Of a stretch of DNA of 64,000 bases, positions 39,127 through 63,465 are shown one piece after another; positions within the stretch are counted from its first letter, which is position 1, and the number at the start of each line of letters is the position of its first letter. Where the stretch lies: the NCBI RefSeq assembly GCF_016598595.1, contig NZ_CP066786.1, positions 1,759,501 through 1,823,500 on the forward strand. Reading direction: 5' to 3'. The position numbers were made by a program, and so were the translations under genes. Source of the DNA: Martelella lutilitoris (GTDB lineage Bacteria; Pseudomonadota; Alphaproteobacteria; Rhizobiales; Rhizobiaceae). The notes under the pieces are model-generated. The model made no database searches. It worked only from the letters and a program-made list of their open reading frames with translations, and had not been told where the DNA came from.

Positions 39127-39151
39127 AACTGCAGGGGGCTGGGAATGTTCC
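39127..39151 (-). promoter_or_regulatory. EcfG-type promoter (leftward)
   Basis: On the reverse strand GGAAC (39151-39147), 17-base spacer, GTT (39129-39127). It points to the FMN reductase gene. Confidence 0.55.
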
Positions 39152-39191
39152 AGCCGACGCTCTGTCTGGTGCTTGCTGGTCCTGCGGCGCG

Positions 39192-39216
39192 GGAACAATT
39201 GGGCAGGCGCCGGGTT
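39192..39216 (+). promoter_or_regulatory. EcfG-type promoter (rightward) for UDP-glucose dehydrogenase
   Basis: GGAAC (39192-39196), 17-base spacer, GTT (39214-39216), about 120 bases before the dehydrogenase start. Confidence 0.65.
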
Positions 39217-39338
39217 TGGCAGCATCCGAACCGGGACGAGGAGCCGGGGCAATGCAGCGCTTTGTCTGCGTCGGGGCGAGTGATGTTCCTGCAGATGCCG
39301 CCATCCTGGCAAGATCACTGAAACAGCTGGAGTGAAAC

Positions 39339-40505
39339 ATGAAAATCGCGGTTGCCGGTATCGGCTATGTCGGGCTTTCGAACGCGGTGCTGCTGGCGCA
39401 GAACCATGAGGTGGTGGCCATCGATATCGATCCGGGGCGGGTTGATGCGCTGAATGCCGGCAGGAGCCCGATCGGCGACGCCGAGATCGAACGCTATCTG
39501 GCGGAAAAGCCGCTGCGGCTGAAGGCGACGACGGAGGCGGCGGCCGCCTATCGCGAGGCCGATTTCGTGATTGTTGCCACGCCGACCAATTACGATCCCG
39601 AGACCAACCACTTCGACACCTCGTCGGTGACCAAGGTTATAAGTGATGTGCTGGCCTCGGGCAGCGCCGCCACGATCGTCATCAAATCGACCGTGCCGGT
39701 TGGCTTTACCGACCGCGCGCGGCTGGCCTTTCAAACCGACCGCATCATCTTCTCGCCGGAATTCCTGCGCGAGGGGCGGGCGCTTTACGACAACCTCAAT
39801 CCTTCGCGCATCGTCATCGGCGAGCGTTCCGCCCGGGCGGAGACCTTTGTCGGCCTTCTGGTCGAAGGCGCGCTGAGGAAGGATGTTCCGGTGCTCTACA
39901 CCGGCGCCTCGGAGGCCGAGGCAATCAAGCTGTTCGCCAACACCTATCTCGCCATGCGCGTCGCCTATTTCAACGAGCTCGACAGCTATGCCGTGACCCA
40001 TGGCATGGATTCGCGGCAGATCATCGAGGGCATCGGCCTCGATCCGCGCATTGGCGACCATTACAACAATCCATCCTTCGGCTATGGCGGCTACTGTCTT
40101 CCGAAGGACACAAGGCAGCTTCTGGCCAATTATTCAGAGGTGCCGCAGAACCTTATCCGCGCCATCGTTGACGCCAATACCACCCGCAAGGATTTCATCG
40201 CCGAGCGCATCATCGCGCTGAAGCCGAAGTCGGTCGGCATCTACCGGCTGGTGATGAAGGCGGGCTCCGACAATTTCCGCCAATCCTCCGTTCAGGGCAT
40301 CATGAAGCGGATCAAGGCCAAGGGCATACCGGTTGTCATCTACGAGCCAACGCTGCAGAGCAGCGCCTACTTCAATTCTCCCGTGCTCCAGGATCTGGAA
40401 GCGTTCAAAAGCGAAGCGGGACTGATCCTTGCCAACAGGATGACAGGCGAAATCCACGATGTGGCGGAGAAGGTCTTCACCCGCGATCTTTTCGGCGCTG
40501 ACTGA
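39339..40505 (+). CDS. ugd: UDP-glucose 6-dehydrogenase
   Basis: Cytoplasmic NAD enzyme of 388 residues, the length of the short E. coli/Klebsiella-type Ugd, that oxidises UDP-glucose twice to UDP-glucuronate. It has the N-terminal [21 protein letters not shown]ossmann motif, [40 protein letters not shown], the helical [19 protein letters not shown], and the catalytic cysteine in [14 protein letters not shown]-glucuronate feeds capsular or lipopolysaccharide sugars. It is followed after 70 bases by a convergent oxidoreductase and then by a glycan operon, so it probably supplies its precursor. Confidence 0.93.
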
Positions 40506-40576
40506 GCGGTTCCCGGCCCGCGCATGGTGACGAAAGCCCGTTGCGACGCCTCCGTTCGTAGCCAGGCCGCCAAACC

Positions 40577-41614
40577 TCAAGACCTGCCATAGATCCTGTC
40601 CAGCACGTCAGCGACGGCGAGAGCGTGACGAATGTCCGGATCGAAGCTGCAGCCCTGCGACAAGCGCCGGGCGAAGCAACTGGCCATGCCTCCGGACCAA
40701 TCGCTGCGCTCTTCACCGACAATCGCACGGTTCGTGCCCTGATGCCGCTCGGTGGCGAAATCGAAGAAGGAGCCATCGATGTTTCGCCAGAGAGCCGAGC
40801 CGTCGCTGCCATGAAACCGAGCGGAAATCTCGGCATCCTTTCCGGCATGGGCATTCCATGAGCAGGACAGCGAGACCCGCGCATCGCCGGCAAGGTCAAT
40901 ATCGGCTATCGCGAAGTCTTCAACCTCGTCCGAGCCTCTTGCGAGAGCAACCCCATTCCGGAACAGCCGGCCGTGAACGGAGCACACGTCGGGAAAGCCA
41001 AGGCACCAGAGCGCGGTGTCGACGAGGTGGACGCCGAGGTCGATGACGCAGCCGCCCCCGGAAAGCGACCTGTCGTAGTACCAGGCCTTGTCCGGGCCGT
41101 AAGCATTGTGGAAGACAAGGTCGACGGCAAAGACGCGGCCGAGTTCGCCGCCTGCGATCATCCGCCTTATCGCCTCCAGCCCTTCCGTGGCGCGGTAGGA
41201 AAAATCCACGCCAAGAAGCCGGTCGTTCCGCTCCGCGGCCGCAATCACGTCGGCGGTCTCGGCCGCTGTCCGTCCGAGCGGCTTCTGGACGAAGGCGGCC
41301 TTGCCGGCCTCAAGCACTGCGATAGCCTCGCGCGCATGGCTGGCGCTCGGCGTGGCGATCACCACGGCATCGAGATCGCAGGCAAGAAGCTCGTCAAGCG
41401 AGCTGCACGCAATGCCCGTCGGCGCAAGCTTATGCGCTTGCTCAAGCGTTTTATCATTGGCATCGGCCACCGCCGCGATCTCCACCAGCTTCGTGTTCGC
41501 GATCGCTTTCAGCCGGTTTTGGCCGATCCAGCCGGTGCCCAGAAAACCGACACGCGGCTTTGTCGTGGCCGGCCTGGAGGCGGTGAGGCTCGTTGTTGTC
41601 TGGCTGATGTTCAT
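40577..41614 (-). CDS. Gfo/Idh/MocA-family sugar oxidoreductase
   Basis: NAD(P)-dependent enzyme of 345 residues. The nucleotide site is VGFLGTGWIGQNRLKAI, the family Lys lies in VQKPLGRTAAE (EKP-like, with Q for E), and the active-site block is GGGCVIDLGVHLVDTALWCLG with the catalytic Asp/His. Relatives oxidise or epimerise sugars, including 3-keto formation on nucleotide sugars. Start 41614 is chosen for GGAGAAGAAGG and the fold; the frame from 41677 would include the promoter. It is divergent from the epimerase operon at 41819 and convergent to ugd, and very likely modifies an intermediate of the same glycan. An EcfG-type promoter lies at 41677-41701. Confidence 0.9.
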   Translation of the reverse strand: MNISQTTTSLTASRPATTKPRVGFLGTGWIGQNRLKAIANTKLVEIAAVADANDKTLEQAHKLAPTGIACSSLDELLACDLDAVVIATPSASHAREAIAVLEAGKAAFVQKPLGRTAAETADVIAAAERNDRLLGVDFSYRATEGLEAIRRMIAGGELGRVFAVDLVFHNAYGPDKAWYYDRSLSGGGCVIDLGVHLVDTALWCLGFPDVCSVHGRLFRNGVALARGSDEVEDFAIADIDLAGDARVSLSCSWNAHAGKDAEISARFHGSDGSALWRNIDGSFFDFATERHQGTNRAIVGEERSDWSGGMASCFARRLSQGCSFDPDIRHALAVADVLDRIYGRS

Positions 41615-41676
41615 GCCTTCTTCTCCGAGGTTTGCGTTTTTTTCTGGCGCCGGGAGCGGCGGCGAAGCGCTCTTCA

Positions 41677-41701
41677 AACCGCGCGATTTCCCGAATGTTC
41701 C
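41677..41701 (-). promoter_or_regulatory. EcfG-type promoter for the Gfo/Idh oxidoreductase
   Basis: Reverse strand GGAAC (41701-41697), 17-base spacer, GTT (41679-41677), giving a leader of about 60 bases. Confidence 0.65.
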
Positions 41702-41743: not shown

Positions 41744-41768
41744 GGAACAATTACCCGCCTTTGCAGTT
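41744..41768 (+). promoter_or_regulatory. EcfG-type promoter for the glycan operon
   Basis: GGAAC (41744-41748), 17-base spacer, GTT (41766-41768), about 50 bases before the epimerase start and back to back with the leftward site at 41677-41701. Confidence 0.68.
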
Positions 41769-41818: not shown

Positions 41819-42925
41819 ATGGCGAAAATTCTTGTTACCGGCGGATCGGGTTTCATCGGCCGGCATCTCTCCCACGAACTCGTCAACCACGGCTATCAGG
41901 TCAAGATCTATGACGCTCTGATTGATCAGGTTCATCAGGGCGGTTCCGTCACCCTTGACGACGCGACCGAACTTGTCCGTGCCGATATCCGCGACCGCGC
42001 CGCGCTCGATCAGGCGCTCGAGGATGTTGACGGCGTCATTCACCTCGCCGCCGAGGTGGGGGTTGGCCAATCGATGTACGAGATCGCGCGCTATGTCGGC
42101 GCCAATGATCTCGGAACGGCCGTGTTGCTGGAAGCCATGATCGGCCGGAACATCAACAAGCTGGTGGTCGCCTCCTCGATGAGCGTCTACGGCGAAGGTC
42201 GCTACGAGGATCGCGAAGGCAGGCATGTCTCAAGCGCACGGCGCAGGCCCGGCGACATTGCGGCAGGCGATTGGGAAGTGCGCGCTGCGGACGGCGAAGC
42301 GCTGCGGCCGGTCGCCACCGACGAGACCAAGCCGGTTGACCTCGCCTCGATCTACGCGCTGACAAAATACGCCCAGGAACGCCAGGCGTTGATCTTCGGC
42401 GAGGCCTATGGCGTCGAGACCGTCGCTCTCCGGCTGTTCAACGTGTTCGGCATGGGGCAGGCGCTTTCCAACCCCTATACCGGCGTTCTGGCGAACTTCG
42501 CCTCCCGCCTTGCCACCGGAGAAGCGCCGCTGATCTTCGAGGACGGGGAACAGCGCCGCGACTTCGTCCATGTCGGCGATGTGGCGACGGCCTTCCGTCT
42601 TGCGCTTGAAACGTCCGGCATTGGCGGCGAAGTCATCAATATCGGCAGCGGCCGCGCCTACCGCGTGGCCGACGTCGCCACACTGCTGGCAGAAGCGATG
42701 GAGCGGTCCGATATCCGGCCGGAGATCCTCGGCAAGGTGCGCAAGGGGGACATCCGCAACTGCTTCGCGGATATTTCCAAGGCGCAATCCCTGCTCGGCT
42801 TTGCCCCCGAGTGCTTCCTCGAAGACGGGCTTGACGAATTCACGGCCTGGGTCCGCAGCGTGGCGGTTGTCGACAACGCCAGCCAGATGCGGCATGAACT
42901 CGAATCGCGGGGGCTGGTATCATGA
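41819..42925 (+). CDS. NAD-dependent nucleotide-sugar epimerase/dehydratase
   Basis: Extended short-chain dehydrogenase of 368 residues. It has ILVTGGSGFIGRHLSHEL at the N-terminus, HLAAEVGVGQSMYEI, VVASSMSVYGEGRYE and the catalytic Y-x-x-x-K as YALTKYAQE, followed by LRLFNVFGMGQ and RRDFVHVGDVATAFRLAL. An insert around residues 135-165 (SSARRRPGDIAAGDWEVRAADG) is not usual for UDP-glucose 4-epimerases. It probably epimerises or dehydrates a nucleotide-linked sugar made from UDP-glucuronate. It is the first gene of a tightly packed operon and overlaps the fusion gene by four bases. Confidence 0.92.
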   Translation: MAKILVTGGSGFIGRHLSHELVNHGYQVKIYDALIDQVHQGGSVTLDDATELVRADIRDRAALDQALEDVDGVIHLAAEVGVGQSMYEIARYVGANDLGTAVLLEAMIGRNINKLVVASSMSVYGEGRYEDREGRHVSSARRRPGDIAAGDWEVRAADGEALRPVATDETKPVDLASIYALTKYAQERQALIFGEAYGVETVALRLFNVFGMGQALSNPYTGVLANFASRLATGEAPLIFEDGEQRRDFVHVGDVATAFRLALETSGIGGEVINIGSGRAYRVADVATLLAEAMERSDIRPEILGKVRKGDIRNCFADISKAQSLLGFAPECFLEDGLDEFTAWVRSVAVVDNASQMRHELESRGLVS

Positions 42926-44943
42926 GCGGGCGCCCCTTTCACCAGAAACCCTACGGATTTGTCGAATGGTTCCGACCGGGTGAATATGAATGGGCTGAGG
43001 AGACCCTTCCGGGCCTGCTCGAGTCGGGCGCAAGCTTCCTGCGCACCCATGTTTCCTGGGCCGAATATCTCGCCCCGGGCGGCGAGGAATGGTTCGACTG
43101 GCTGATCCCGAAAATAGGCCCGGCGATCGACCTTCTGCCCTGCATCCATTATACGCCGCCGTCGATGTCGCGCACCGGCAAGACCTCCGGTCCGCCGCAT
43201 GACTTGAAGGCTTACGCCGATTTCGTCGATCATGTGCTGACCCGTTATGGCCGCCACTTCGAGCATATCGAACTGTGGAACGAGCCGAACAACCTGCTCG
43301 ACTGGGACTGGCGGCTCGACACCGACTTCCAGATGTTCTGCGAGATGGTCGGCGGCGCGGCCTACTGGGCGCAGAAACGCGGCTGGAAAACGGTTCTCGG
43401 TGGCCCCAGCCCGTTTGATCCCTATTGGCTGAACCTGATGGGCGAGCGCGGCGTGCTGGGCGTTGTCGATGCCGTCGGCTTTCACGGTTTTCCCGGCACC
43501 TGGGAGAGCGAGGAGAACACCTGGGCCGGCTGGGACCATCATATGGGCGAGATGCGCAACGTCGTCGAGCGCTACAATCAAGACGCGGCGATCTGGATCA
43601 CCGAGGCCGGCTATTCGACATGGCGCAACGGCGAACTCGAGCAGGTCCGCCACTTCGTCGACACCATGAAATCCAGCGCCGACAGGCTCTACTGGTATGG
43701 CTGGCGCGACATCCCGGGAGACGTCGCCGTGCAGGAGGGGCACTGGTTCGACCCGCGGCACTACCATCTCGGGGTCGTCGACCGCTCCAATCGGCCGAAA
43801 CTCCTGGCGAGGCTGCTGACGGAAGGCGGTCCGCAACGGCTTGCCGAATTTGCCGACCTTCCAGCGCCTGCCATCAATGAAGGCATCCGCCCCGTGGTAA
43901 TTACCGGAGGCTGCGGTTTCATCGGCGCCAATCTCGCAGATAGCCTGCTCTGTGATGGCGAAGATGTGGTGATCCTCGACAATCTGGGCCGGCTCGGCGT
44001 GGACCAGAACCTGCATTGGCTGAAAGATCGGCACGGCGACCGCGCCCATCCGTTCCTGGCAGATGTGCGCGACTTGCCGGCGATCGAAAACGCGTTTGCG
44101 GACGCGAGTGCGGTGTTTCATTTCGCCGGACAGACGGCGGTAACGACGAGCCTCGTCCATCCGCTCGACGATTTCGAGATCAATGCACGCGGCACCATCA
44201 ATGTTCTGGAAGCCGTTCGCCGGTCAGGCCGTCGCGCGCCGGTGATCTTTTCCTCAACGAACAAGGTCTATGGCAGTCTTGAGGACATCAGCCTTGTCGA
44301 AGAGGAAGAGCGCTACACTCCGCTGGACGACATCCTGCGCCGTCACGGCGTGGCGGAAACGCGGCCGCTGGATTTCCACACGCCCTATGGCTGCTCGAAG
44401 GGCGCGGCAGATCAATATGTGCTCGACTATGCCCGCAGCCACGGCATTCCGACCGGCGTGCTGCGAATGAGCTGCATCTACGGCGAGCGGCAGTTCGGAA
44501 CCGAGGATCAGGGTTGGGTCGCGCATTTTCTGCTTAAGGCGCTTTCCGGCGAACCGATCACCATCTTCGGTGATGGCAAGCAGGTTCGCGACATTCTCGA
44601 AATTGGCGACGCGGTCCGCGCCTATCGCCTGCTCCTGTCGCGGATCGAAAAGATGCCGGGACGGGTGTTCAACCTTGGCGGCGGTTCGCAGAATGCGGTG
44701 AGCCTTCTCCAGTTGCTGCGTGAAATCGGCCGCATCGTCGGTCATCCGGTCGATGTCCGTCACGAGGGCTGGCGCGAGGGCGATCAGCTTTACTTCGTTG
44801 CCGACACCCGCAGGCTGATCGAGGAAACCGGCTGGCAGGCGCAGACGGAATGGCGGCGGGGCATCCGCACGCTCGCCGATTGGCTTCGTGAAAACCGGTT
44901 TTCCGGCGGGGACCGTGAACAGCGCCGGAGGGCCGCGGAATGA
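42922..44943 (+). CDS. Fusion of GH39-like glycosidase domain and CDP-tyvelose-2-epimerase-like domain
   Basis: Two enzymes in one 673-residue chain. Residues 1-310 are a (beta/alpha)8 glycosidase-like domain with catalytic candidates E121 in IELWNEPNN (acid/base) and E228 in WITEAGYSTW (nucleophile), the clan A pattern of GH39-like proteins. Residues 323-660 form an extended epimerase with ITGGCGFIGANLAD, FSSTNKVYGS, TPYGCSKGAADQYVLDYARS (Y489, K493), RMSCIYGERQFGTEDQGWVAHF and VRDILEIGDAVRAY; these are hallmarks of CDP-paratose/tyvelose 2-epimerase relatives. No signal peptide is present, so the glycosidase half would act in the cytoplasm. Start and end overlap the neighbours by four bases each. 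A fusion of this kind is unfamiliar to me; the join lies between residues 311 and 322 with no frameshift sign. Confidence 0.88.
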   Translation: MSGRPFHQKPYGFVEWFRPGEYEWAEETLPGLLESGASFLRTHVSWAEYLAPGGEEWFDWLIPKIGPAIDLLPCIHYTPPSMSRTGKTSGPPHDLKAYADFVDHVLTRYGRHFEHIELWNEPNNLLDWDWRLDTDFQMFCEMVGGAAYWAQKRGWKTVLGGPSPFDPYWLNLMGERGVLGVVDAVGFHGFPGTWESEENTWAGWDHHMGEMRNVVERYNQDAAIWITEAGYSTWRNGELEQVRHFVDTMKSSADRLYWYGWRDIPGDVAVQEGHWFDPRHYHLGVVDRSNRPKLLARLLTEGGPQRLAEFADLPAPAINEGIRPVVITGGCGFIGANLADSLLCDGEDVVILDNLGRLGVDQNLHWLKDRHGDRAHPFLADVRDLPAIENAFADASAVFHFAGQTAVTTSLVHPLDDFEINARGTINVLEAVRRSGRRAPVIFSSTNKVYGSLEDISLVEEEERYTPLDDILRRHGVAETRPLDFHTPYGCSKGAADQYVLDYARSHGIPTGVLRMSCIYGERQFGTEDQGWVAHFLLKALSGEPITIFGDGKQVRDILEIGDAVRAYRLLLSRIEKMPGRVFNLGGGSQNAVSLLQLLREIGRIVGHPVDVRHEGWREGDQLYFVADTRRLIEETGWQAQTEWRRGIRTLADWLRENRFSGGDREQRRRAAE

Positions 44944-46115
44944 AACAGGATCCGAGAGATGTCTGGGTCCAGCGCGATGGCGCGGCCGGCCAAGGGGCGA
45001 ACGTTGCGCAGCACGGGAACGACGAACCGCTGCGGGTACTGATGACGGTCGACGCGGTCGGCGGTCTCTGGCGCTATGCCGTGGCGCTTGGCGAACAGCT
45101 GAAGAAAAACGGGGTTGAAATTTGCTTCGCCGGCTTCGGACCCGCGCCTCGGCCCGAGCAGGTTGCCGAGGCCGAACGCATCGGCCGGTTGCGCTGGTTC
45201 GACATGCCGCTGGACTGGATGGTGACTGACGGGCACGAGTTGGCCGATGTTCCCAAGGCGGTCGCCGAGGCCCGCGAGGCGTTCGATGCCCATATCGTTC
45301 AGGTCAACCTGCCGACGCAGGCTGCCAGTCTCGAGGTCGATGTGCCGATCGTGGCGGTCAGCCACTCCTGCCTGCCGACATGGTTCGAGGCGATGTGCGC
45401 GGGCGAGGAAAACGACATGCTCGCCTGGCACAGGCGCCTCAACCGCACCGGTTTCGACAATGCCGATGCCGTGGTCGTGCCGAGCGGAAGTCATGCCGCC
45501 GCACTGTTTAGGACCTATGGCGAGATTGTCGCCCTGAAGATTGTCCACAATGCGCTCTGCGCCGCGCCGGCCCCGGCGCCGAAGCAGAACTTCGTCTTCG
45601 CCGCCGGGCGGTGGTGGGACGAAGCCAAGAATGCGCGGACGCTGGATGAGGCAGCCCTCAGCGCCTGGTGGCCGGTGGTGCTTGCCGGCAGCGCCCGTGG
45701 CCCCGATGGCAGCGAAACGGGGATCGAACACGCGATCAATCGTGGCGCGCTGCCTTACGACGAGACCATGGCGCTGATGGCGCAGGCGGCAATCTTTGCC
45801 TCGCCGTCGCTCTACGAGCCTTTCGGGCTCGCGGCGCTCGAAGCGGCGGCTTCAGGCGCGGCGCTGGTGCTTGCCGACATTCCGACCTACCGCGAATTAT
45901 GGGAGGGCGCGGCGGTCTTCGCGGATCCGCACGAGCCGCAGGCCTTCGCCCATGCGATCAATCATCTGGCAGGCAATCCCCCTCTGCGGCAGCAGATCGC
46001 CAGCCGGGCGATGGACCGAAGCCTTCACTTCGCACCGCAATCGCAGACCGCCGCCATGACGGCGCTCTACCGGGAACTCCTGAACACGGCCGGAGCCGGC
46101 CGGACGGTGAGGTAA
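44940..46115 (+). CDS. Glycosyltransferase, GT4-like (GT-B fold)
   Basis: Transferase of 391 residues. The N-terminal domain starts near residue 32 with LRVLMTVDAVGGLWRYAVALGEQLKKNG, where GGLWRYA is the acceptor-side glycine loop. The C-terminal domain has the E-x7-E donor motif in SLYEPFGLAALEAAASG. The first 30 residues are polar and probably flexible. It overlaps the upstream fusion gene by four bases and lies two bases from the first CgeB-like gene, indicating one transcript. Donor sugar unknown. Confidence 0.9.
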   Translation: MKQDPRDVWVQRDGAAGQGANVAQHGNDEPLRVLMTVDAVGGLWRYAVALGEQLKKNGVEICFAGFGPAPRPEQVAEAERIGRLRWFDMPLDWMVTDGHELADVPKAVAEAREAFDAHIVQVNLPTQAASLEVDVPIVAVSHSCLPTWFEAMCAGEENDMLAWHRRLNRTGFDNADAVVVPSGSHAAALFRTYGEIVALKIVHNALCAAPAPAPKQNFVFAAGRWWDEAKNARTLDEAALSAWWPVVLAGSARGPDGSETGIEHAINRGALPYDETMALMAQAAIFASPSLYEPFGLAALEAAASGAALVLADIPTYRELWEGAAVFADPHEPQAFAHAINHLAGNPPLRQQIASRAMDRSLHFAPQSQTAAMTALYRELLNTAGAGRTVR

Positions 46116-46116
46116 T

Positions 46117-47241
46117 ATGCGCTTTATCTTCTACACCCATTCGCTTGTCTCCGACTGGAACCACGGCAACGCCCACTTCCTGCGCGGCGTCATGCGCGCG
46201 CTCATGCGGCGCGGTCATACGGCGCTGGCGCTTGAGAAAGAGGGGAGCTGGAGCCGAGAAAACCTGCTTGCGGATCAGGGGCCGGCGGCGCTCGCTCGCT
46301 TTCACGATCACTTTCCGCATCATCAAAGCGAGACTTACGACGATGATGCTGACCACGAAGCGCTGATCGGCGATGCCGATGTCGTGGTGGTTCACGAATG
46401 GACCGATCCGGCGCTGGTCGCAAAGCTCGGAAGGCTGCGGCGGCAGGGTGGCAAGTTCCTCCTGCTGTTTCACGATACCCATCACCGCGCCGTCTCGGCC
46501 GAAACCGAAATCGCCGGCCTCGATCTCGACGGCTATGACGGCGTGCTTGCCTTTGGCGCGACCTTGAAGGAGCGATACCTGAAGGCCGGCTGGGGCAGTC
46601 GCGTTTTCGTCTGGCACGAGGCGGCCGACACCGCGCTGTTCCACCCGCTGCCGGACGAAGACGCCTCGCGCAATCTCGTCTGGATCGGCAATTGGGGCGA
46701 TGACGAGCGGTCGAGCGAGCTCAGCGAATTCCTGATCGAACCGGCGCGCGCGCTTGGCCTTACCGGAACCGTGCATGGCGTGCGTTACCCACCCAAAGCG
46801 CTGGAGGCGCTGGCGAAGACCCGGCTCGACTATCGCGGCTGGATCGCCAATGCCGATGTGCCGCTCGCCTTCGCGCGCCACCGGGTGACGGTGCATATTC
46901 CGCGCCGGCCCTATGTGGAATCCCTTCCGGGAATCCCGACCATTCGCGTGTTCGAGGCGCTGGCGAGCGGTATTCCGCTGATCTGCGCGCCGTGGCGCGA
47001 TGCCGAGGGCCTGTTCCGGCCGGGAACGGATTACCTGCAGGCGGAAAGCGGAGACGAGATGCGCAGTCAGCTCCGCGCCGTCCTCCTCGATCCCGATCTC
47101 GCGACATCGCTCGTCAAATCCGGATACGAAACCATCAGGGCGCGCCACACCTGCGAACATCGCGTCGACGAACTTCTCACCATCATCGAGCAGATCGGCG
47201 GCAAACAGCCGGCGATCGCGGAAGGAGCAGTTTCCAGATGA
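46117..47241 (+). CDS. CgeB-like glycosyltransferase (first of three)
   Basis: GT-B transferase of 374 residues in the CgeB / glycosyltransferase 1-2 group. It starts MRFIFYTHSLVSDWNHGNAHFLRGVMRAL and has the characteristic middle (VWIGNWGDDERSSELSEFLIEPARAL) and C-terminal donor region (IPTIRVFEALASGIPLICAPWRDAEGLFRPGTDYL). The FEALASG Glu sits where GT4 enzymes hold the donor phosphates. CgeB of Bacillus glycosylates spore surface proteins; the rhizobial members are uncharacterised. It overlaps the next paralogue by four bases. Confidence 0.88.
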   Translation: MRFIFYTHSLVSDWNHGNAHFLRGVMRALMRRGHTALALEKEGSWSRENLLADQGPAALARFHDHFPHHQSETYDDDADHEALIGDADVVVVHEWTDPALVAKLGRLRRQGGKFLLLFHDTHHRAVSAETEIAGLDLDGYDGVLAFGATLKERYLKAGWGSRVFVWHEAADTALFHPLPDEDASRNLVWIGNWGDDERSSELSEFLIEPARALGLTGTVHGVRYPPKALEALAKTRLDYRGWIANADVPLAFARHRVTVHIPRRPYVESLPGIPTIRVFEALASGIPLICAPWRDAEGLFRPGTDYLQAESGDEMRSQLRAVLLDPDLATSLVKSGYETIRARHTCEHRVDELLTIIEQIGGKQPAIAEGAVSR

Positions 47242-49450: not shown

Positions 49451-49470
49451 TCATGACAAGGAGGAACACG

Positions 49471-50770: not shown

Positions 50771-50795
50771 AACCGGATCGGGGCTCCGATGTTCC
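50771..50795 (-). promoter_or_regulatory. EcfG-type promoter
   Basis: Reverse strand GGAAC (50795-50791), 17-base spacer, GTT (50773-50771), 55 bases before the start at 50716. Confidence 0.65.
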
Positions 50796-50887: not shown

Positions 50888-50912
50888 GGAACATTTCCGA
50901 GCCTCTTTGCTT
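50888..50912 (+). promoter_or_regulatory. Imperfect EcfG-type promoter of the catalase gene
   Basis: GGAAC (50888-50892), 17-base spacer, CTT instead of GTT (50910-50912). One mismatch, correct spacing, 35 bases before the start. Confidence 0.4.
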
Positions 50913-51854: not shown

Positions 51855-52071
51855 ATTGATGGCTAAGACGCTGTAAGGAGACCGGCGTGGCACAGATTTT
51901 CAGCGCTGCAGCGGATGCGAAGCTTCGGCCTTTCGCCGGAGGGTCGCGCTGTTCCACCACTTTAGCGGCGCTGACTGGGTGCGCGAATAGCCCGCGCCCT
52001 CTGGTCATCAGCACCAACCACTACAACTGACAAGACGAAATCTCCTGGTTTGTCAGCGATGGTCATTTCCA

Positions 52072-52245
52072 GGTGAAAGCGAAGCGCCGATCGCGCCACC
52101 TGAGAACCACGGCTTCGGCAGCACTCTGATCAAAGGCGAGATATCCTATCGCCTCGGCGGCACGTTCGAAACCGAGTACGCAGCTTCCGGACTGATCGCG
52201 ACGATCAGCATTCCCTTCGACAAGCTGCATGCCCTTGAGGAATAG
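52072..52245 (+). pseudogene. HWE/HisKA_2 histidine kinase, C-terminal remnant
   Basis: Fifty-seven codons read GESEAPIAPPENHGFGSTLI, KGEISYRLGGTFETEY and SGLIATISIPFDKLHALEE, the end of an HWE-type ATP-binding domain (P-P-x-x-x-G-F-G-x-x-L-I and the final I-P strand). The dimerisation helix, HWE box and sensor are missing; upstream codons contain stops. HWE kinases normally phosphorylate PhyR-type or REC-only regulators, so this relic beside the REC and sigma genes is telling. Nothing else is supportable in 51855-52536. Confidence 0.7.
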
Positions 52246-52536: not shown

Positions 52537-53199
52537 ATGCAACTCTTACCGGAAACCCCTTCCAGCGGTCTACAGGATCCTGACGAAAACAGCTTGCACG
52601 GAAACCTCGACAGGCTGCGCGGATCGCGGATCCTGATCGTTGAGGACGAATATCTGATCGCCCAGAACCTTTCCCGCACCTTCGAAAAGGTCGGCGCCAA
52701 AGTGTTGGGGCCCGTGGCGTCCATCGCCCAGGCCATCCCCCATCTCGGCAGGACCGATGCCGCCGTCCTCGATATCAATCTCGACGGTACGCCGGTCTTT
52801 CCGCTGGCGGATATCCTGCACCAGAACCACACGCCTTTCGTCTTCTTCTCCGGATGCGCGGAAATCATCATTCCCCATCGTTTCCGCTTCATCAATACGC
52901 TGCCGAAGCCGAACGGAATCCGCGAAGTCATCGCGTCGCTGATCGCGACCTATGACCGGTCTGCGACAGTTGCCGCCGAGGGCGACGGCGAAGATGTGAT
53001 AACGCTGATGCCGAGTCTGAGGCTGGCCGCCCGGCTGCTTGTCGCCGATGACGCCGCCGCCGACCGGCTTGTGGAGCGGACCTTCGAATACGCAATCGCC
53101 CATGTCGACGAGAGACCTGCCGGAATGTCCCGGCTGGAATGGCTGCTCTCGACGCTTGAGGATCTGCGTCTCGTCGAGGGCCGAAGCATTCTCAACTGA
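52537..53199 (+). CDS. Response regulator: REC domain with sigma-region-2-like tail
   Basis: Cytoplasmic protein of 220 residues. Residues 30-142 are a receiver with the acidic pair in IVEDEY (E37-D38), phosphoacceptor D79 in LDINLDG, S105 in FFSG and K124 in LPKP. Residues 159-208 (PSLRLAARLLVADDAAADRL ... RLEWLL) align without gaps to residues 22 onward of the EcfG-type sigma factor encoded next door (16 identities in 47 by eye), that is, its region 2. PhyR anti-anti-sigma proteins have a complete sigma-like domain in front of REC; here a shorter one follows REC. It may bind NepR, or merely share ancestry. GGAAA-type sequence upstream is not a convincing EcfG promoter. Confidence 0.85.
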   Translation: MQLLPETPSSGLQDPDENSLHGNLDRLRGSRILIVEDEYLIAQNLSRTFEKVGAKVLGPVASIAQAIPHLGRTDAAVLDINLDGTPVFPLADILHQNHTPFVFFSGCAEIIIPHRFRFINTLPKPNGIREVIASLIATYDRSATVAAEGDGEDVITLMPSLRLAARLLVADDAAADRLVERTFEYAIAHVDERPAGMSRLEWLLSTLEDLRLVEGRSILN

Positions 53200-53390: not shown

Positions 53391-53900
53391 CTACTGCACC
53401 TCGCCAAGTTCTTCGAGAAGCAGTTGACGCGCCCGGTTTACCCGGCTTTTCACGGTTCCGATCGCGCAGTCGCAAATCTCGGCAGCATCGATATAGCTCT
53501 CGCCGAGCACCATCACCAGGACGAACATCTCGCGGTAATGCGGCGGAATGCGCGCCAGCGCATCCAGCAGTTCCTGCCCCCTGACCGACCAGTCCTGCGT
53601 CGCGTCATTTTGCGGCAGGCTGGCGACGCAATCTTCTTCGCCGGGCGCTTCACGGTTCCTCACCTTGATCTGGGTGTAGAAGGTATTGCGCATGATCGTG
53701 AACAGCCAGGATTTCAACCTTGTTCCCGGCTTGAACTTGTCGAGGTTGGCGATACCCTTCAGCATCGTCTCCTGAACCAGGTCATCGGCGTCGTCGGGAT
53801 TGCGGCAGAAGGTTCGGGCGAACGCCCGGAGCGCCGGGATGAGTTCGACCACCTCCTGGTGTTGCCGGCTCCTTAGTCTCACTTCTTGCTGGTTCATCAT
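53391..53900 (-). CDS. ECF RNA polymerase sigma factor, EcfG type (general stress response)
   Basis: Sigma factor of 169 residues. Region 2 covers about residues 20-85 (IPALRAFARTFCRNPDDADDLVQETMLKGIANLDKFKPGTRLKSWLFTIMRN) and region 4 about 108-165 (LLDALARIPPHYREMFVLVMVLGESYIDAAEICDCAIGTVKSRVNRARQLL), with the EcfG-typical AAEIC-C-GT-KSRVNRAR. Such factors recognise GGAAC and GTT, are held by NepR and released by phosphorylated PhyR. A possible own promoter with an 18-base spacer lies at 53933-53958. It converges on the REC-sigma-like gene. The NepR-like gene lies 2.9 kb away rather than adjacent. Confidence 0.92.
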   Translation of the reverse strand: MMNQQEVRLRSRQHQEVVELIPALRAFARTFCRNPDDADDLVQETMLKGIANLDKFKPGTRLKSWLFTIMRNTFYTQIKVRNREAPGEEDCVASLPQNDATQDWSVRGQELLDALARIPPHYREMFVLVMVLGESYIDAAEICDCAIGTVKSRVNRARQLLLEELGEVQ

Positions 53901-53932
53901 GGGCTCCGTCTCGATTTGGTCCCTCTGAACCT

Positions 53933-53958
53933 AACGAAGCCGACGGGCTCGCGGTTCC
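53933..53958 (-). promoter_or_regulatory. Candidate EcfG-type promoter of the sigma gene
   Basis: Reverse strand GGAAC (53958-53954), 18-base spacer, GTT (53935-53933); one base longer than the other sites. Confidence 0.4.
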
Positions 53959-54106
53959 TCTCTTTCTGTCCAAGCCGGCGATATTCGCGTGGCGCACAGA
54001 AACAGCCCTCGAACTGAAACGGCGGCAAGCGCCGCCAAACCGTCTCTACCGTCGCGCTTGATCGCCTCCGGTGACGCTCTGCCATCGTCAGCCGCGCAAA
54101 ATTCCT

Positions 54107-54131
54107 GGAACAACCGTCTGCCAACCCAGTT
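54107..54131 (+). promoter_or_regulatory. EcfG-type promoter of the small gene / P450 operon
   Basis: GGAAC (54107-54111), 17-base spacer, GTT (54129-54131), 33 bases before the start at 54164. Confidence 0.65.
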
Positions 54132-54163
54132 CTGCGGCACGTCCGTTCAGAGAAAGGAAAGAG

Positions 54164-56386: not shown

Positions 56387-56411
56387 AACCAAGTCGGCTG
56401 GGTTTTGTTCC
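56387..56411 (-). promoter_or_regulatory. EcfG-type promoter
   Basis: Reverse strand GGAAC (56411-56407), 17-base spacer, GTT (56389-56387). The remaining bases to 56751 hold nothing I can support. Confidence 0.65.
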
Positions 56412-56751: not shown

Positions 56752-56925
56752 ATGGCAGAAGGCAATGACAAGAACAAAGTTGCGTCCGAGCGTTCCGACG
56801 CGTTTCTGGATCAAAGGACTACAGAGCTCCTCTCCCAGATCAAGCAGGAGCCTGTGCCCGACCGCCTGCTCGAGCTTGCGGTGAAACTGCAGCAGGCGCT
56901 GAACGAGCGGGAGAACAAATCCTGA
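56752..56925 (+). CDS. NepR-like anti-sigma factor
   Basis: Small protein of 57 residues: MAEGNDKNKVASERSDAFLDQRTTELLSQIKQEPVPDRLLELAVKLQQALNERENKS in outline, read as a polar N-terminus, a first helix and the NepR core EPVPDRLLELAVKLQQAL. The E-x-V-P-D-R-(F/L)-x-x-L core contacts both EcfG sigma factors and PhyR. It would hold the sigma factor encoded at 53391-53900 until a phosphorylated PhyR-type protein takes it away. A perfect terminator hairpin follows. It is not next to the sigma gene, which is unusual, and an IS256 element has landed just downstream. Confidence 0.82.
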   Translation: MAEGNDKNKVASERSDAFLDQRTTELLSQIKQEPVPDRLLELAVKLQQALNERENKS

Positions 56926-56980: not shown

Positions 56981-58307
56981 GTGGAGACTGTCTAGAATTT
57001 TGTGCCCTGGCGCTGTTTCAGGACATAGGAAAACGTTCTTCGAACATGATTGCGAGCTGGCTTTTGACGGCGTGCCATTCTCGCACTGAACGCTTCCACT
57101 CGGTTGAGGTAGCATTGAGGGCCAGATAGATCAACTTGGCCGCTGCCTCATCGCTCGGGAAATGGCCGCGGGTTCTGACGGCGCGGCGGATTTTCGAATT
57201 CAGAGCCTCAATGGAATTCGTCGTGTAGATCAGCCTGCGCACCTCTGGCGGATAGTCGAGAAACGGGATGACCTCGTTCCAGGCCTTTCGCCAACTCGGC
57301 ACGATCGCCGGATAACGCTTGGCGAGATCGCTGTCCTCGAACGTCGCCAGCGCTTCTTCCGCCGCCTCGACATTGACGGCGGTGTAAACCGTCTTGAGCG
57401 CCTTGGCGACGGCCTTGCGGTCCTTGTAGCTGGCGAAGTTCATGGAATGGCGCAGGAGATGGACGATGCAGGTCTGAACCTGTGTTCTCGGGAAGGCGGC
57501 CTCGATGGCCTGCGGAAAGCCTTTGAGACCATCGACGACGGCGATCAGGATGTCCTGGACACCGCGATTGCGCAGGTCGCCCAGCACGCTGGCCCAGAAC
57601 TTGGCGCCTTCATTGGCCTGGAACCACAGGCCCAGCACGTCGCGCGTGCCGTCCGGCAGAATGGCCAGCGCCACGAACACCGCCTTGTTGGAGACCACGC
57701 CGTCGCTGCGGATATTGACCCGGATCGCGTCCATGAAGACGATCGGATAGCAGGGCTCCAGAGGGCGGTTCTGCCATGCCGTGACCTCATCCATCACGCT
57801 GTCGGTGATCGCGGAAATCAGGCCGGGCGAGGCCTCGACGCCGTAGATTTCCTCGATATGCCCCTGGATCTCGCGCGTTGTCATGCCCCGGGCATACATC
57901 GAGATGATCTTGCGGTCGAAATCGGGAAAGCGGCGCTGGTATTTGGCGATCAGCACCGGATCGAAGGTGCCGTTGCGGTCACGAGGAATGTCGAGGACCA
58001 CCTTGCCGCTGTCGGTGGTCACCGTCTTGCTGCTGGAGCCATTGCGACGGTTTGCCGACTGGTTATGGCCTTCGGGCACAGCCTCAGCCCGTTCCTCATC
58101 AAGATGGACGTCCATCTCGGTGCTCAGGGCGCGTTCGGCCAGCGCTTTTGTCAGTTCGGACAGGATACCGTCCTTGCCGAAAAGATCACCGGGCGAGCGC
58201 CCTTGCATCAGGCGGTCCAAGAGTTCTTTGTCGATGCTCATACGTGGGTCTCCTCAAAGAGCAGTTACCACGCCAGAGCACAAAAATCAGGACAGTCCCC
58301 GTTTGTG
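56976..58307. mobile_element. IS256-family insertion sequence with 8-bp target duplication
   Basis: The element spans 56984-58299 (1316 bp). Ends are imperfect inverted repeats of about 27 bases, GAGACTGTCTAGAATTTTGT at the left and, in reverse complement, GGGACTGTCCTGATTTTTGT at the right. The direct repeat CGTTTGTG flanks both sides (56976-56983 and 58300-58307), the 8-bp duplication usual for IS256. It holds one full-length transposase gene. Intact ends and duplication point to a recent insertion. Confidence 0.92.
57018..58241 (-). CDS. IS256-family transposase (mutator type)
   Basis: Full-length DDE transposase of 407 residues. Conserved blocks are RNGSSSKTVTTDSGKVVLDIPRDRNGTFDP, KIISMYARGMTTREIQGHIEEIYGVEASPGLISAITD, YPIVFMDAIRVNIR (first Asp), ILIAVVDGLKGFPQAIEAAFPRTQVQTCIVHLLRHS (second Asp and C-x2-H) and IYTTNSIEALNSKIRRAVRTRGHFPSDEAAAKLIYLA (Glu). 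No frameshift is seen, so it should be active. Confidence 0.95.
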   Translation of the reverse strand: MSIDKELLDRLMQGRSPGDLFGKDGILSELTKALAERALSTEMDVHLDEERAEAVPEGHNQSANRRNGSSSKTVTTDSGKVVLDIPRDRNGTFDPVLIAKYQRRFPDFDRKIISMYARGMTTREIQGHIEEIYGVEASPGLISAITDSVMDEVTAWQNRPLEPCYPIVFMDAIRVNIRSDGVVSNKAVFVALAILPDGTRDVLGLWFQANEGAKFWASVLGDLRNRGVQDILIAVVDGLKGFPQAIEAAFPRTQVQTCIVHLLRHSMNFASYKDRKAVAKALKTVYTAVNVEAAEEALATFEDSDLAKRYPAIVPSWRKAWNEVIPFLDYPPEVRRLIYTTNSIEALNSKIRRAVRTRGHFPSDEAAAKLIYLALNATSTEWKRSVREWHAVKSQLAIMFEERFPMS

Positions 58308-58327: not shown

Positions 58328-59290
58328 TCATCGCATCAGGAAATTGTCCGGGTTGTCTGCAAAAGCCTCTGCGTCGTAGGTCTTCTGCCCCTCAAGCTCT
58401 GTCTCGCTGAATGGGGTGAAGACCGCAAAGTCATCGCCGTCACGCCGCACGTTGAGATTTTGCGAAGCGATTGCAACTTCCTTCTCACCGATACCGAGAA
58501 AGCCGCCAACATCGACGATATATGCTTGGACCTCGCCCTGCGGTCGAAGAATCACATCCCCGATGTCGCCGATCTCATCACCGCTCTCACCGTAAACCAC
58601 GGCATCAAGCAACTCGTCCGCCCTCAGATTGGTGTGTGAGACCGGCTTCGTATCGCGCCAGGCCATGCCGGCGGGCGACTGAGCAAACGCGTTGTCGGCC
58701 ATCCGGTCCTCGATGTCCGGCGCTCTGCTGCTCCCTTCGCCCGCCATCTGGTCTTTCGGCCTTGTCGGAGCGGTTTCCTCTCCGGGAAAGCGGTTGCTTC
58801 GATCAAGCGCGGTATCGCTATCGCGGGAAATGTCGGTTTGCAGGTCTGCCGAGGGCCTGACCGTGCCATAGTCGAAATCAGGCGCGCTTTGCAGTTGGTC
58901 GCGGTTTGTGGCGAGTGTCAGGTACAGCATGCCCTGGTCGTCACGGTTCTGCTCGACCTTGTCGAATGGAACGGCGACGTTCTTCTCGCCGATTTCCAGA
59001 AAACCGCCAACGCCGATAATCAGCCCGGCGATTTCCCCATCCTGACTGATGAGCAGATCGTCGACATCGCCGACAGCTTCGCCGGTGGGACCCGGGTTGG
59101 TGTAGACCGTGCCGCCCATCAGATCCGTTCCGAGGATCTGTTTTTCTGACACCTGCACGGAGTGGATATCGGTCGTCTGCATGGCGGCCGTGTTTTGCAT
59201 TGTGTCGGCATCAGTTTGGCTCTGGGCCCAGGCGGTGCCCGCCAGAACGGCGCACACGGCGGTGGTGGCTGTGAACTTGGTCATGAACAT
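58328..59290 (-). CDS. Exported protein with two PRC-barrel domains
   Basis: Periplasmic protein of 320 residues with signal peptide (MFMTKFTATTAVCAVLAGTAWAQ). First PRC-barrel about residues 50-135 (TDLMGGTVYTNPGPTGEAVGDVDDLLISQDGEIAGLIIGVGGFLEIGEKNVAVPFDKVE), then a low-complexity polar linker, then a second barrel about 225-300 (RADELLDAVVYGESGDEIGDIGDVILRPQGEVQAYIVDVGGFLGIGEKEVAI). It is a paralogue of 37092-37511. The start at 59290 has AAAGGGA; a second ATG two codons on is also possible. An EcfG-type promoter lies at 59365-59389. The IS256 element lies 20 bases beyond its 3' end. Confidence 0.88.
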   Translation of the reverse strand: MFMTKFTATTAVCAVLAGTAWAQSQTDADTMQNTAAMQTTDIHSVQVSEKQILGTDLMGGTVYTNPGPTGEAVGDVDDLLISQDGEIAGLIIGVGGFLEIGEKNVAVPFDKVEQNRDDQGMLYLTLATNRDQLQSAPDFDYGTVRPSADLQTDISRDSDTALDRSNRFPGEETAPTRPKDQMAGEGSSRAPDIEDRMADNAFAQSPAGMAWRDTKPVSHTNLRADELLDAVVYGESGDEIGDIGDVILRPQGEVQAYIVDVGGFLGIGEKEVAIASQNLNVRRDGDDFAVFTPFSETELEGQKTYDAEAFADNPDNFLMR

Positions 59291-59364: not shown

Positions 59365-59389
59365 AACCGTGAACGCGCCGCGATGTTCC
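59365..59389 (-). promoter_or_regulatory. EcfG-type promoter of the double PRC gene
   Basis: Reverse strand GGAAC (59389-59385), 17-base spacer, GTT (59367-59365), 75 bases before the start. Confidence 0.65.
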
Positions 59390-59418: not shown

Positions 59419-59443
59419 GGAACAAAACCGGCATGCGCCTGTT
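59419..59443 (+). promoter_or_regulatory. EcfG-type promoter of the short anchored-protein genes
   Basis: GGAAC (59419-59423), 17-base spacer, GTT (59441-59443), 38 bases before the GTG start at 59481; back to back with 59365-59389. Confidence 0.68.
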
Positions 59444-60038: not shown

Positions 60039-60221
60039 TCAGGATTTGTGTTCAGGTTTTCCCTTGCGCTCTCCGGATGCCAGTTCGTCCAGCTCCTTCT
60101 GCGACATTGACTTTTCCATCTGCCGCGCCGGCCCCTTGAGGTCGCTTTTCTTCTGTTCGCCGCGCTTTGCGGCAAGCGCCGCGCCGGCGGCCTTCTGCTG
60201 GGATTTTGATTTCGCGGGCAT
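60039..60221 (-). CDS. DUF3008-family small basic protein
   Basis: Sixty residues matching the DUF3008 pattern: MPAKSKSQQKAAGAALAAKRGE, KKSDLKGPARQMEKSMSQKELDELASGERKGKPEH. Lys- and Ala-rich, probably nucleic-acid associated or disordered. AAGGAG precedes it and an EcfG-type promoter lies at 60255-60279. Family function unknown; the proteins are common in proteobacterial stress gene sets. Confidence 0.85.
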   Translation of the reverse strand: MPAKSKSQQKAAGAALAAKRGEQKKSDLKGPARQMEKSMSQKELDELASGERKGKPEHKS

Positions 60222-60254: not shown

Positions 60255-60279
60255 AACAGGCGAGGCCGGCACATGTTCC
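60255..60279 (-). promoter_or_regulatory. EcfG-type promoter of the DUF3008 gene
   Basis: Reverse strand GGAAC (60279-60275), 17-base spacer, GTT (60257-60255), 34 bases before the start. Confidence 0.65.
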
Positions 60280-60970: not shown

Positions 60971-60979
60971 CGCAGAGAC

Positions 60980-62050: not shown

Positions 62051-62126
62051 GGGAAGGATCCGAGCCTCGCCCTGCCATTGCCGCCTTCAGACGGTCGCGA
62101 CGATTTATGCGCTTCGCGCTGAAACA

Positions 62127-62151
62127 GGAACATTCGCAGGTCCTTCAAGTT
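62127..62151 (+). promoter_or_regulatory. EcfG-type promoter of the 57-residue gene
   Basis: GGAAC (62127-62131), 17-base spacer, GTT (62149-62151), 58 bases before the start at 62209. Confidence 0.62.
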
Positions 62152-62208
62152 TGATGAGCAATGAAACGGCATCCAACGCCGAAACACGCGCTATGGATTG
62201 GGTAAATC

Positions 62209-62382
62209 ATGTTCAAGAACGGTCTCTCCCCGCTTACTCTGGCCCTCGTGGTGGCAGTTCTGATGCTGCTGGCGGTGGTCGGCGTCTATCGGTTCAACGC
62301 AGCGCCGGTTGAAGCGCCGACCCGGCATCCGCCCATCGAAGACGTGCCGCCGAGCGCCACGGGCGACGCCGACACCCCTTGA
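62209..62382 (+). CDS. Short single-helix membrane protein
   Basis: Protein of 57 residues: MFKNGLSPLTLALVVAVLMLLAVVGVYRF helix, then an Ala/Pro/Glu tail (APVEAPTRHPPIEDVPPSATGDADTP). The ribosome site is weak. Its plan matches the short anchored proteins at 50301, 59481 and 59774. Function unknown. Confidence 0.6.
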   Translation: MFKNGLSPLTLALVVAVLMLLAVVGVYRFNAAPVEAPTRHPPIEDVPPSATGDADTP

Positions 62383-62405
62383 GCGGGCGTCGGCGCCGAT
62401 ATTTC

Positions 62406-63332
62406 TCAGGTCACGCTCAGTACCACCTTGCCCTGCGTATGCTGGTTTTCCAGAACCGCCTGGGCCTTCGCCGCTTCGGAAAGCTGAAACGTGTTCTGCA
62501 CGGAAATCCGCAGCTTGCGCCGCTCGATGAGTTCGGCGATCTCGGCGAGCTGGCCGCCGTTGGGCTTGGCCATGTAGCCGGCGGTGCGGACCTTGAATTT
62601 CGAGGCGGTTTCCCGGTCGGGCTCGCCGAGCGTGGAGACCAGGATGCCGCCTTCCTTCAGCACCTCAAACGAACGCATGCGCGTTTCGCCGCCGATCAGG
62701 TCGAACACGAGATCGACCGGATCGAGGACGTCCTCGAAGATTTCCGATTTGTAGTCGATGACCTGATCGGCGCCGAGCTTGCGCGCGAATTCCATGTCTT
62801 CGGGCGAGACCGTCGTCGCCACCCAGGCGCCCTTCGCCTTTGCGATCTGAACGGCAAGATGACCGACGCCACCGCCGCCGCCATGGACGAGGACGCGCTG
62901 GCCCTGCTGAAGCCCGCCGTGATCGATGAGACCCTGCCAAGCGGTGAGGCCTGCAAGCGGAACGGCCGCGGCTTCCTCGGCGCTCAGCGATTGCGGCACG
63001 GCGGCGAGATGCTCTGCTGGCACCGCCACATACTCGGCATAGCCGCCGCGGCTCATCTCGAGAAAGGCGAACACGCGGTCGCCGACGGCAATGTGTCCGA
63101 CCCCTTCGCCAAGCGCCTCGACGTCTCCGCAGATATCGCGGCCAAGGATCATCGGCAGCCTGTCCTCGCCAACGGCGCCGTAATCGCCGGAACGGATCTT
63201 CCAGTCTACCGGATTGACGCTCGCGGCAAGCACCTTGATCAAAACCTCGCCAGCGGCCGGCTCCGGCCGCTCGACCTGCTCGAGCTTCAGAACCTCGGGC
63301 GTCCCGAAATCGTGGATGCGGATCGCTTTCAT
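62406..63332 (-). CDS. Quinone oxidoreductase-like MDR dehydrogenase (NADP-dependent, zinc-free)
   Basis: Cytoplasmic enzyme of 308 residues. [51 protein letters not shown] is the quinone oxidoreductase start and [29 protein letters not shown] the NADP loop; it lacks the zinc ligands. The C-terminal end has [26 protein letters not shown]. It probably reduces quinones or enones. Start 63332 follows AAAGGAG; the longer frame would cross the promoter region. An imperfect EcfG box (CGAAC-N17-GTT) lies at 63387-63411. Confidence 0.92.
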
Positions 63333-63386
63333 TTCTGCCGTCTCCTTTGTTGGTGCGGCGGTCACACCGCCGTCATTCTGTGCCCA

Positions 63387-63411
63387 AACGATTGAAACGG
63401 CGGATTGTTCG
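63387..63411 (-). promoter_or_regulatory. Imperfect EcfG-type promoter of the quinone oxidoreductase
   Basis: Reverse strand CGAAC (one mismatch, 63411-63407), 17-base spacer, GTT (63389-63387). Confidence 0.4.
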
Positions 63412-63440
63412 CACCGTCGTCCAAACGACAAGAAGAATCC

Positions 63441-63465
63441 GGAACCAAACGGGATGACTTCAGTT
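63441..63465 (+). promoter_or_regulatory. EcfG-type promoter of the zinc dehydrogenase
   Basis: GGAAC (63441-63445), 17-base spacer, GTT (63463-63465), 78 bases before the start at 63544. Confidence 0.62.

Follow-up and report, generated by a model that had tools for sequence, protein, structure and literature searches.

The 64,000-nucleotide stretch of Martelella lutilitoris analysed here (the window; C1:1759501-1823500, from a genome of 4.79 Mb with 3 contigs) carries a cluster of GGAAC-N17-GTT sites around a gene for an EcfG-type sigma factor of the non-canonical EcfG2 clade. We judge it probable that these sites are the promoters of an accessory general-stress island with an EcfG2 of its own, switched on by the canonical EcfG1 and gated by partner proteins encoded in the island. 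At the level of sequence, the sites are clustered and regularly spaced, their -10 elements form two classes that follow the sigma clades, and a kit of regulatory genes lies among them; from these patterns we infer which sigma factor would read which site, the cascade and the gating. What is new here is that the comparison suggests a link of DGTT promoters (first base A, G or T) with EcfG2 and of CGTT promoters with EcfG1.

Promoter-like sites in the window

All 12 GGAAC-N17-GTT matches listed in the initial annotation were recovered at the same coordinates and on the same strands, the first at 39127 with none earlier in the window. The claim of constant spacing also held, as a spacing of 17 bases gave 12 matches in the window and spacings of 10-16 and 18-25 gave 0-5 each. 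Chance had been thought an unlikely origin, and 300 first-order Markov resamples of 38938-63998 yielded a mean of 0.55 matches and a maximum of 4; none of the 12 sites lay inside a gene, though only 18% of that interval is intergenic by gene calls made with our own script, on which "intergenic" and all distances to starts depend. The placement described earlier, 30-125 bases before a gene start, was correct for 9 of the 12 (33-123 bases), while the other 3 lie at 190, 284 and 331 bases, and three of the four proposed back-to-back pairs are exact (39127/39192, 41677/41744 and 59365/59419) whereas the fourth relies on a near match. Among the four near matches reported, those at 50888 (GGAAC-N17-CTT), 60285 and 63387 (both with a CGAAC start) have one mismatch each, but that at 53933 stands 18 bases before its GTT. 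In our estimate, the 12 sites are almost certainly real EcfG-type promoters. They are listed here with the near match at 50888:

39127..39151, minus strand: putative AGTT promoter, 190 bases before the FMN reductase gene 38320-38937
39192..39216, plus strand: putative GGTT promoter before the UDP-glucose dehydrogenase gene 39339-40505
41677..41701, minus strand: putative GGTT promoter before the Gfo/Idh/MocA oxidoreductase gene 40577-41614
41744..41768, plus strand: putative AGTT promoter before the epimerase/glycosyltransferase/methyltransferase gene run 41819-50220
50771..50795, minus strand: putative GGTT promoter before the small protein gene 50498-50716
50888..50912, plus strand: near match GGAAC-N17-CTT before the Mn catalase gene 50947-51774 (Pfam Mn_catalase)
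54107..54131, plus strand: putative AGTT promoter before an 88-amino-acid (aa) gene, 54164-54430, followed by the P450 gene 54427-55683
56387..56411, minus strand: putative GGTT promoter, 284 bases before the DUF982 gene 55789-56103
59365..59389, minus strand: putative GGTT promoter before the PRC-barrel gene 58328-59290
59419..59443, plus strand: putative TGTT promoter, 331 bases from the nearest called start, 59774
60255..60279, minus strand: putative TGTT promoter before the DUF3008 gene 60039-60221
62127..62151, plus strand: putative AGTT promoter before the 57-aa gene 62209-62382
63441..63465, plus strand: putative AGTT promoter before the zinc alcohol dehydrogenase gene starting at 63544

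Between the site at 59419 and the start at 59774, frame 59493-59696 matches a 72-aa protein of a second island, described below.

Two islands and two -10 classes

Across the whole genome the plain GGAAC-N17-GTT pattern matched 164 times and its reversed form 97 times, so that many single matches elsewhere must be due to chance; the count was too close to its control and was dropped as genome-wide evidence. Twenty-three of the 164 matches, 22 of them intergenic, fall within 44 kb (binomial P 2e-20; for the 12 sites in 24 kb, P 8e-11). The regulon had been described as spanning 24 kb, and it is indeed clustered, but the cluster runs past the window edge to C1:1842362 (window position 82862). A second cluster of 11 sites lies about 375 kb further on, at C1:2217781-2245023. 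The sites of the window do lie beside an EcfG-type sigma gene, but they form one of two islands and not the entire EcfG regulon of the genome. A refined pattern, GGAACMW-N14-DGTT, matched 50 times genome-wide against 12 for the reversed pattern, with 21 matches in C1:1798627-1842362 and 8 in C1:2217781-2240081, counts that are not an independent test because the pattern was refined on the island's own sites; as a spacing control for this genome, the DGTT pattern with 18 spacer bases gave 8 matches, and 1 reversed. The second island (island 2) encodes a second EcfG2 (81% identical), a NepR-like protein of 58 aa, a protein with a receiver domain followed by a sigma2-like tail (C1:2233185-2233847), and a respiratory operon that matches the one on plasmid pMM593 of Martelella mediterranea.

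We defined likely promoters as intergenic sites no more than 250 bases before a start. Positions relative to genes were determined for every GGAAC-N16-CGTT match of the genome (51) and for the complete set of 21 GGAACMW-N14-DGTT matches that fall outside the islands. The ratio of DGTT to CGTT was 28:1 in the islands and 8:23 elsewhere, the 8 being a lower bound because the search for DGTT sites beyond the islands was confined to GGAACMW; among GGAACMW sites alone it was 26:1 versus 8:10 (P=1.2e-4). Within the islands the first -10 base was A in 10 cases, G in 11, T in 7 and C in 1, and this sole CGTT case precedes the second ecfG2 gene. EcfG (ECF15) targets have a -35 GGAAC and a -10 CGTT at N16-17; the putative targets here agree with this in the -35 and the spacing, and their -10 is DGTT in 28 of the 29 likely island promoters. 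In 11 groups of orthologous promoters, picked by hand and with positions 1-5 and 23-25 fixed by the search itself, the spacer diverges, position 6 is invariant and position 22 is never C (11/11 groups); in 4 of the 11 groups this first -10 base varies, the change always being between A, G and T and never to C.

EcfG2 was encoded in 4 of 12 other genomes of the genus at 81-96% identity, the best match in the other 8 being ~42%, and sites cluster around those four genes as well (14, 17 and 15 in 80 kb; 12 in 44 kb). The M. mediterranea gene is carried on pMM593.

A non-canonical EcfG and its putative promoter

The regulatory genes and related features among the window's sites are as follows:

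53391..53897, minus strand: ecfG2, non-canonical EcfG-type (ECF15) sigma factor, 168 aa, assigned by Pfam and clade
53933..53958, minus strand: putative ecfG2 promoter GGAAC-N17-CGTT of the canonical (EcfG1) type, with the same form and place in genomes G001, G006 and G012
52537..53199, plus strand: receiver then sigma2-like tail, 220 aa, candidate PhyR-like antagonist in reverse order
56752..56925, plus strand: NepR-like small protein, 57 aa, candidate anti-sigma factor
52037..52242, plus strand: remnant of a CheR/HWE-like histidine kinase, last ~73 residues, found by tblastn in two pieces
57018..58241, minus strand: Mutator-family transposase gene within the island (Pfam Transposase_mut 3e-136)

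An EcfG-type sigma factor had been reported in the window and is present, but it is a paralogue belonging to the EcfG2 clade and not the canonical EcfG. Its place in the EcfG (ECF15) family is supported by Pfam matches to Sigma70_r2 and Sigma70_r4_2 (1e-16 and 1e-13) and to PhyR_sigma2 (1e-10), and it shares 43% identity with the core EcfG of the same genome. The EcfG2 clade comprised 26 rows (support 85/81) and included Rhizobium etli EcfG2 and a Sinorhizobium meliloti pSymB homologue; the core-side EcfG clade had support of 98/94. The only full PhyR_sigma2, NepR and EcfG locus found was the core one at C1:705706-707349, and the island is not a canonical EcfG locus, as its NepR-like gene is not accompanied by a PhyR with the usual domain order. 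Between 59 EcfG1 and 57 EcfG2 sequences, numbered as in the window's protein, near-fixed residues in or beside region 2 differ (L69/M69, S75/T75 and D86/G86), differences due in part to the use of sequence in defining the two classes.

All 6 of the Martelella ecfG2 genes examined are preceded by a CGTT site: GGAAC-N17-CGTT for the window gene and its relatives in G001, G006 and G012, and GGAAC-N16-CGTT for the second-type ecfG2 in G000 and G009. A further EcfG-like sigma stretch (30% identity) was noted at C1:2354587-2355024 in a 419-aa open frame, and the surrounding 18 kb held no GGAAC-Nx-GTT site at spacings of 14-20.

EcfG2 loci in other genera

Seventeen plasmid loci with EcfG2 homologues, 16 of them chosen for taxonomic spread from 60 listed of 343 records and the other being R. 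etli p42f, were all counted, giving 171 matches at spacing 17 and, at the other 15 spacings, 40 at 18 and 10-29 at each of the rest. Nine control stretches from the same replicons held 15 matches at spacing 17 against 94 in their 9 partner loci; in one, Ensifer L088, the control had 7 matches and its case locus 5. A profile scan of alphaproteobacterial contigs returned at least 593 stretches, and the best 80 were assigned by profile score, 31 to the EcfG2 class and 44 to the EcfG1 class, with the 5 in between dropped. PhyR adjoins 0 of the 31 EcfG2-class loci and 37 of the 44 EcfG1-class loci, so that the class split follows the known canonical/non-canonical line. Both classes peak at spacing 17 (177 and 159 matches, respectively). 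In these 75 fresh loci the DGTT:CGTT ratio at spacing 17 was 111:50 for the EcfG2 class and 29:114 for the EcfG1 class (P=8e-18, with 16 palindrome-paired matches per class dropped), and at spacings 17 and 18 together, with those pairs kept, 168:78 versus 54:142 (P=1e-17); these P values are too favourable, since related species do not count as independent samples, and the locus-level test is fairer. Counted by locus (24 + 24 loci with at least 3 sites), the mean D fraction was 0.65 in the EcfG2 class and 0.22 in the EcfG1 class (P=1.3e-7; by locus for both spacings, P=2.5e-8). Spacing-18 sites in EcfG2-class loci (L155, L157, L162, L163, L165 and others) were mostly DGTT (45/69).

Two homologues in the same clade can be compared with published systems. 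R. etli EcfG2 (PF00052), which we assign to RHE_RS26680 on p42f, has ferritin-like protein and P450 genes as neighbours, as on Martelella pMM593, and the 50 kb around it hold 14 GGAAC-N17-GTT sites, of which 12 are DGTT when a palindromic pair is counted as two; unlike the Martelella gene, it has no NepR-like open reading frame (ORF) nearby by our own hidden Markov model (HMM). The R. etli EcfG1 has the motif GGAAC-N16-CGTT, each EcfG paralogue favours its own promoter in Escherichia coli, and loss of EcfG1 roughly halves ecfG2 expression (PMC3892343); an ecfG2 mutant is sensitive to oxidative stress (PMC3188799). The S. meliloti pSymB homologue has a NepR-like ORF beside it, and 5 of its 7 local sites are DGTT (one palindromic pair counted twice). 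It is presumably RpoE5, an ECF15 member on pSymB whose gene is activated by RpoE2 (PMC6180224).

Candidate partner proteins in the islands

The NepR-like protein noted earlier in the window corresponds to the 57-aa product of 56752-56925, and it belongs to a second, non-canonical set. It scored 15.5 bits against PF18557, below the cut-off of 25.7, and matched an HMM of two NepR ORFs from related genomes at E=1.7e-8 (database of 4); a homologue 84% identical to it carries the UniRef name NepR-domain protein. The 95-aa ORF 53897-54184 was also considered as a NepR and was rejected, being arginine-rich and lacking a NepR motif. NepR-like ORFs were found by HMM (E<1e-3) in 9 of the 17 plasmid loci and 0 of the 9 controls, the HMM including proteins from 2 of those 17 loci, and in 18 of 31 EcfG2-class and 41 of 44 EcfG1-class genome loci. 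A strict NepR pattern found a match in 2 of the 17 plasmid loci, in none of the 9 controls and in only 2 of the 19 loci given as a core set.

PhyR consists of an N-terminal sigma-like part (sigma2 and sigma4) followed by a C-terminal receiver. The receiver-sigma2 protein of the window is not a PhyR: its domain order is reversed, with a receiver match at 32-109 and a sigma2-like one at 148-212, and it has no sigma4 match. Profile comparison of tail residues 148-212 with 18 EcfG proteins gave a probability of 96.8% (P 3e-10). The predicted structure had a mean pLDDT of 67, so only the receiver part of the structure match was used, which matched SdrG (5ieb). The protein has 481 homologues, and among 120 listed, aligned with the window's protein, the sigma2-like core is kept in the tail of 55; many of the named ones come from Mesorhizobium. 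Near EcfG2 outside Martelella such proteins are rare (1 of 31 genome loci; 2 of 16 plasmid loci, in Roseivivax and Paracoccus), and a literature search of titles and abstract openings found no publication naming a receiver-then-sigma2 protein. That it binds NepR is our guess.

Island 2 also has an intact kinase-like protein of 1000 aa, of which the window keeps only the end (52037-52242); we read it as a CheR/HWE-like kinase, and its pMM593 homologue is annotated as CheR family. A plasmid locus of Roseivivax marinus is a far relative, in the Rhodobacterales, with a similar kit; there (L077, 20001-24746) sigma gene, CheR/HWE-like kinase (46%) and receiver-sigma2 protein adjoin one another. The chances appear even that the NepR-like and receiver-sigma2 proteins gate EcfG2.

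Proposed cascade and alternative explanations

In the model we propose, stress releases canonical EcfG1 at the core locus, and EcfG1 would then read the CGTT promoter before ecfG2. EcfG2 in turn would bring RNA polymerase to the GGAAC-N16-DGTT promoters that surround ecfG2, the targets being UDP-sugar and glycan enzymes, P450, PRC-barrel, CBS and small stress-type proteins, alcohol dehydrogenases, cytochrome bd and an efflux pump. Partner switching by the island's NepR-like and receiver-sigma2 proteins would gate EcfG2. EcfG2 is quite probably the main reader of the island promoters, and it seems fairly probable that EcfG1 switches on EcfG2 in Martelella. The island would share with the canonical EcfG/NepR/PhyR response the sigma family, the -35 GGAAC, the spacing and NepR-like and sigma2-like partners, and would differ from it in an accessory locus, a -10 that mostly avoids CGTT, and a receiver protein with the receiver first and no sigma4-like part. 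Caulobacter SigT-SigU and the Sphingopyxis EcfG paralogues likewise place two EcfG in series, but are reported to share targets, unlike the pair proposed here (PMC8103513). At least two EcfG-like genes were present in half of the completed alphaproteobacterial genomes surveyed in 2013 (PMC3892343), and a 2021 review describes the promoter pattern of non-canonical EcfG as yet to be determined (PMC8103513). The motif, the candidate targets and the predicted cascade make the role of such extra copies testable, and a sigma factor that lies within its own regulon, with a single -10 base as the main difference, would illustrate how a cell can take on a further stress programme without mixing it up with the existing one. 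More tentatively, and somewhat short of an even chance, Alphaproteobacteria may carry self-contained second general stress responses, each with EcfG2, a DGTT code, a clustered regulon and NepR, some with a back-to-front PhyR and an HWE-like kinase; in Martelella, a single CGTT promoter before the sigma gene would link the system to the core response.

Several observations weigh against this model. Support for the EcfG2 clade (85/81) is modest. Eight likely DGTT promoters (5 GGTT, 2 TGTT and 1 AGTT) lie outside the islands and similar GGTT-type sites were seen by eye in G010, which is without EcfG2, so EcfG1 may itself read GGTT. The DGTT pattern exceeds its reverse in the 8 Martelella genomes that lack EcfG2 (148 versus 70) as well as in the 5 that have it (149 versus 50), and DGTT counts alone therefore do not separate the two groups; the CGTT pattern barely exceeds its control in several genomes (G008, 48 versus 48; G000, 51 versus 29). 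The preference for DGTT is not strict, since 50 of 161 EcfG2-class sites at spacing 17 are CGTT and two Mesorhizobium plasmids and one Ensifer plasmid are mostly CGTT. Nor is the spacing strict, EcfG2-class loci having 69 matches at 18, which suggests that lineages may differ in it by one base. The sigma gene's own promoter was CGTT in 4 of 7 plasmid loci against 34 of 164 other sites (P=0.044) and, in the genome loci at spacing 17, in 5 of 12 against 49 of 165 (P=0.52). At spacing 18 the own promoter was CGTT in 6 of 6, where 24 of 69 of all sites are CGTT, and these six cases all come from Neorhizobium, Pseudorhizobium and Rhizobium. Because the rule is weak outside Martelella, the cascade is proposed for Martelella only. 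Published work adds that R. etli EcfG1 did not stimulate ecfG2 in E. coli, that R. etli EcfG2 also reads phyR, and that an EcfG2 motif was searched for in 2013 and not found (PMC3892343); that S. meliloti RpoE5 overexpression showed one target (PMC6180224); that the Methylobacterium extorquens consensus -10 is C/GGTT (PMC4814048); and that in Sphingopyxis granuli the -10 is flexible, with both EcfGs doing best on CGTT (PMC7083833).

Such findings lend some weight to the view that the island promoters are ordinary targets of EcfG1, or of both sigma factors equally, with DGTT as tolerated drift and the genes gathered by selection or shared acquisition. Flexibility of the -10 with the same sigma factors is known from the M. 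extorquens and S. granuli reports, GGTT sites occur outside the islands and in an EcfG2-less genome, and EcfG1-class loci also show a local excess at spacing 17 (159 matches). Yet the DGTT/CGTT split tracks the sigma clade in the 75 fresh loci and, in Martelella, leaves out the promoter of the sigma gene itself, and the clades, themselves made by sequence, differ at near-fixed residues 69, 75 and 86; we consider this view rather unlikely. It is quite improbable that the window island is a decaying EcfG2 regulon whose work is done by the second, complete island: the kinase is reduced to a remnant and a transposase gene (57018-58241) is present, but the genes for the sigma factor, the NepR-like protein and the receiver-sigma2 protein have open reading frames, all 12 promoter sites match exactly, and a kinase encoded elsewhere could act on the island's receiver protein. 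That the enrichment is an artefact of composition or repeats with no regulatory meaning is hardly credible, for although the plain pattern gave only 164 versus 97 matches genome-wide, all 12 window sites are intergenic against a resample mean of 0.55, the excess falls at spacing 17, and less at 18, in the 17 plasmid and 75 other loci, and in the hand-picked orthologue groups the spacer diverges while position 6 stays fixed and position 22 is never C.

Other island genes and flanking regions

In literature searches, no paper was found on Martelella with EcfG and the general stress response, and none, by title, on a genomic island of this kind with EcfG. Topoisomerase IB, Cu/Zn superoxide dismutase and PQQ dehydrogenase genes lie in the island with no exact site directly upstream in our own lists. 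An empty insertion site was sought in 12 genomes; G009 alone matched the left flank over its full length, and matches to the right flank were scattered. In six of the loci outside Martelella (L155, L157, L158, L159, L162 and L167, from Neorhizobium, Pseudorhizobium and Rhizobium), ecfG2 is preceded, 66-87 bases upstream of the sigma match, by similar sites of the form GGAACCAAA...GCGTT in which GTT follows after 18 bases. Beyond the window, genes with an upstream site (within ~330 bases) include SDR, cytochrome bd, epimerase and RND pump genes. The right flank (L002 ~5700-19100; 85700-99100 on the window scale) contains many small genes, phage-like by look, and two 407-aa ORFs of the same length as the island's transposase.

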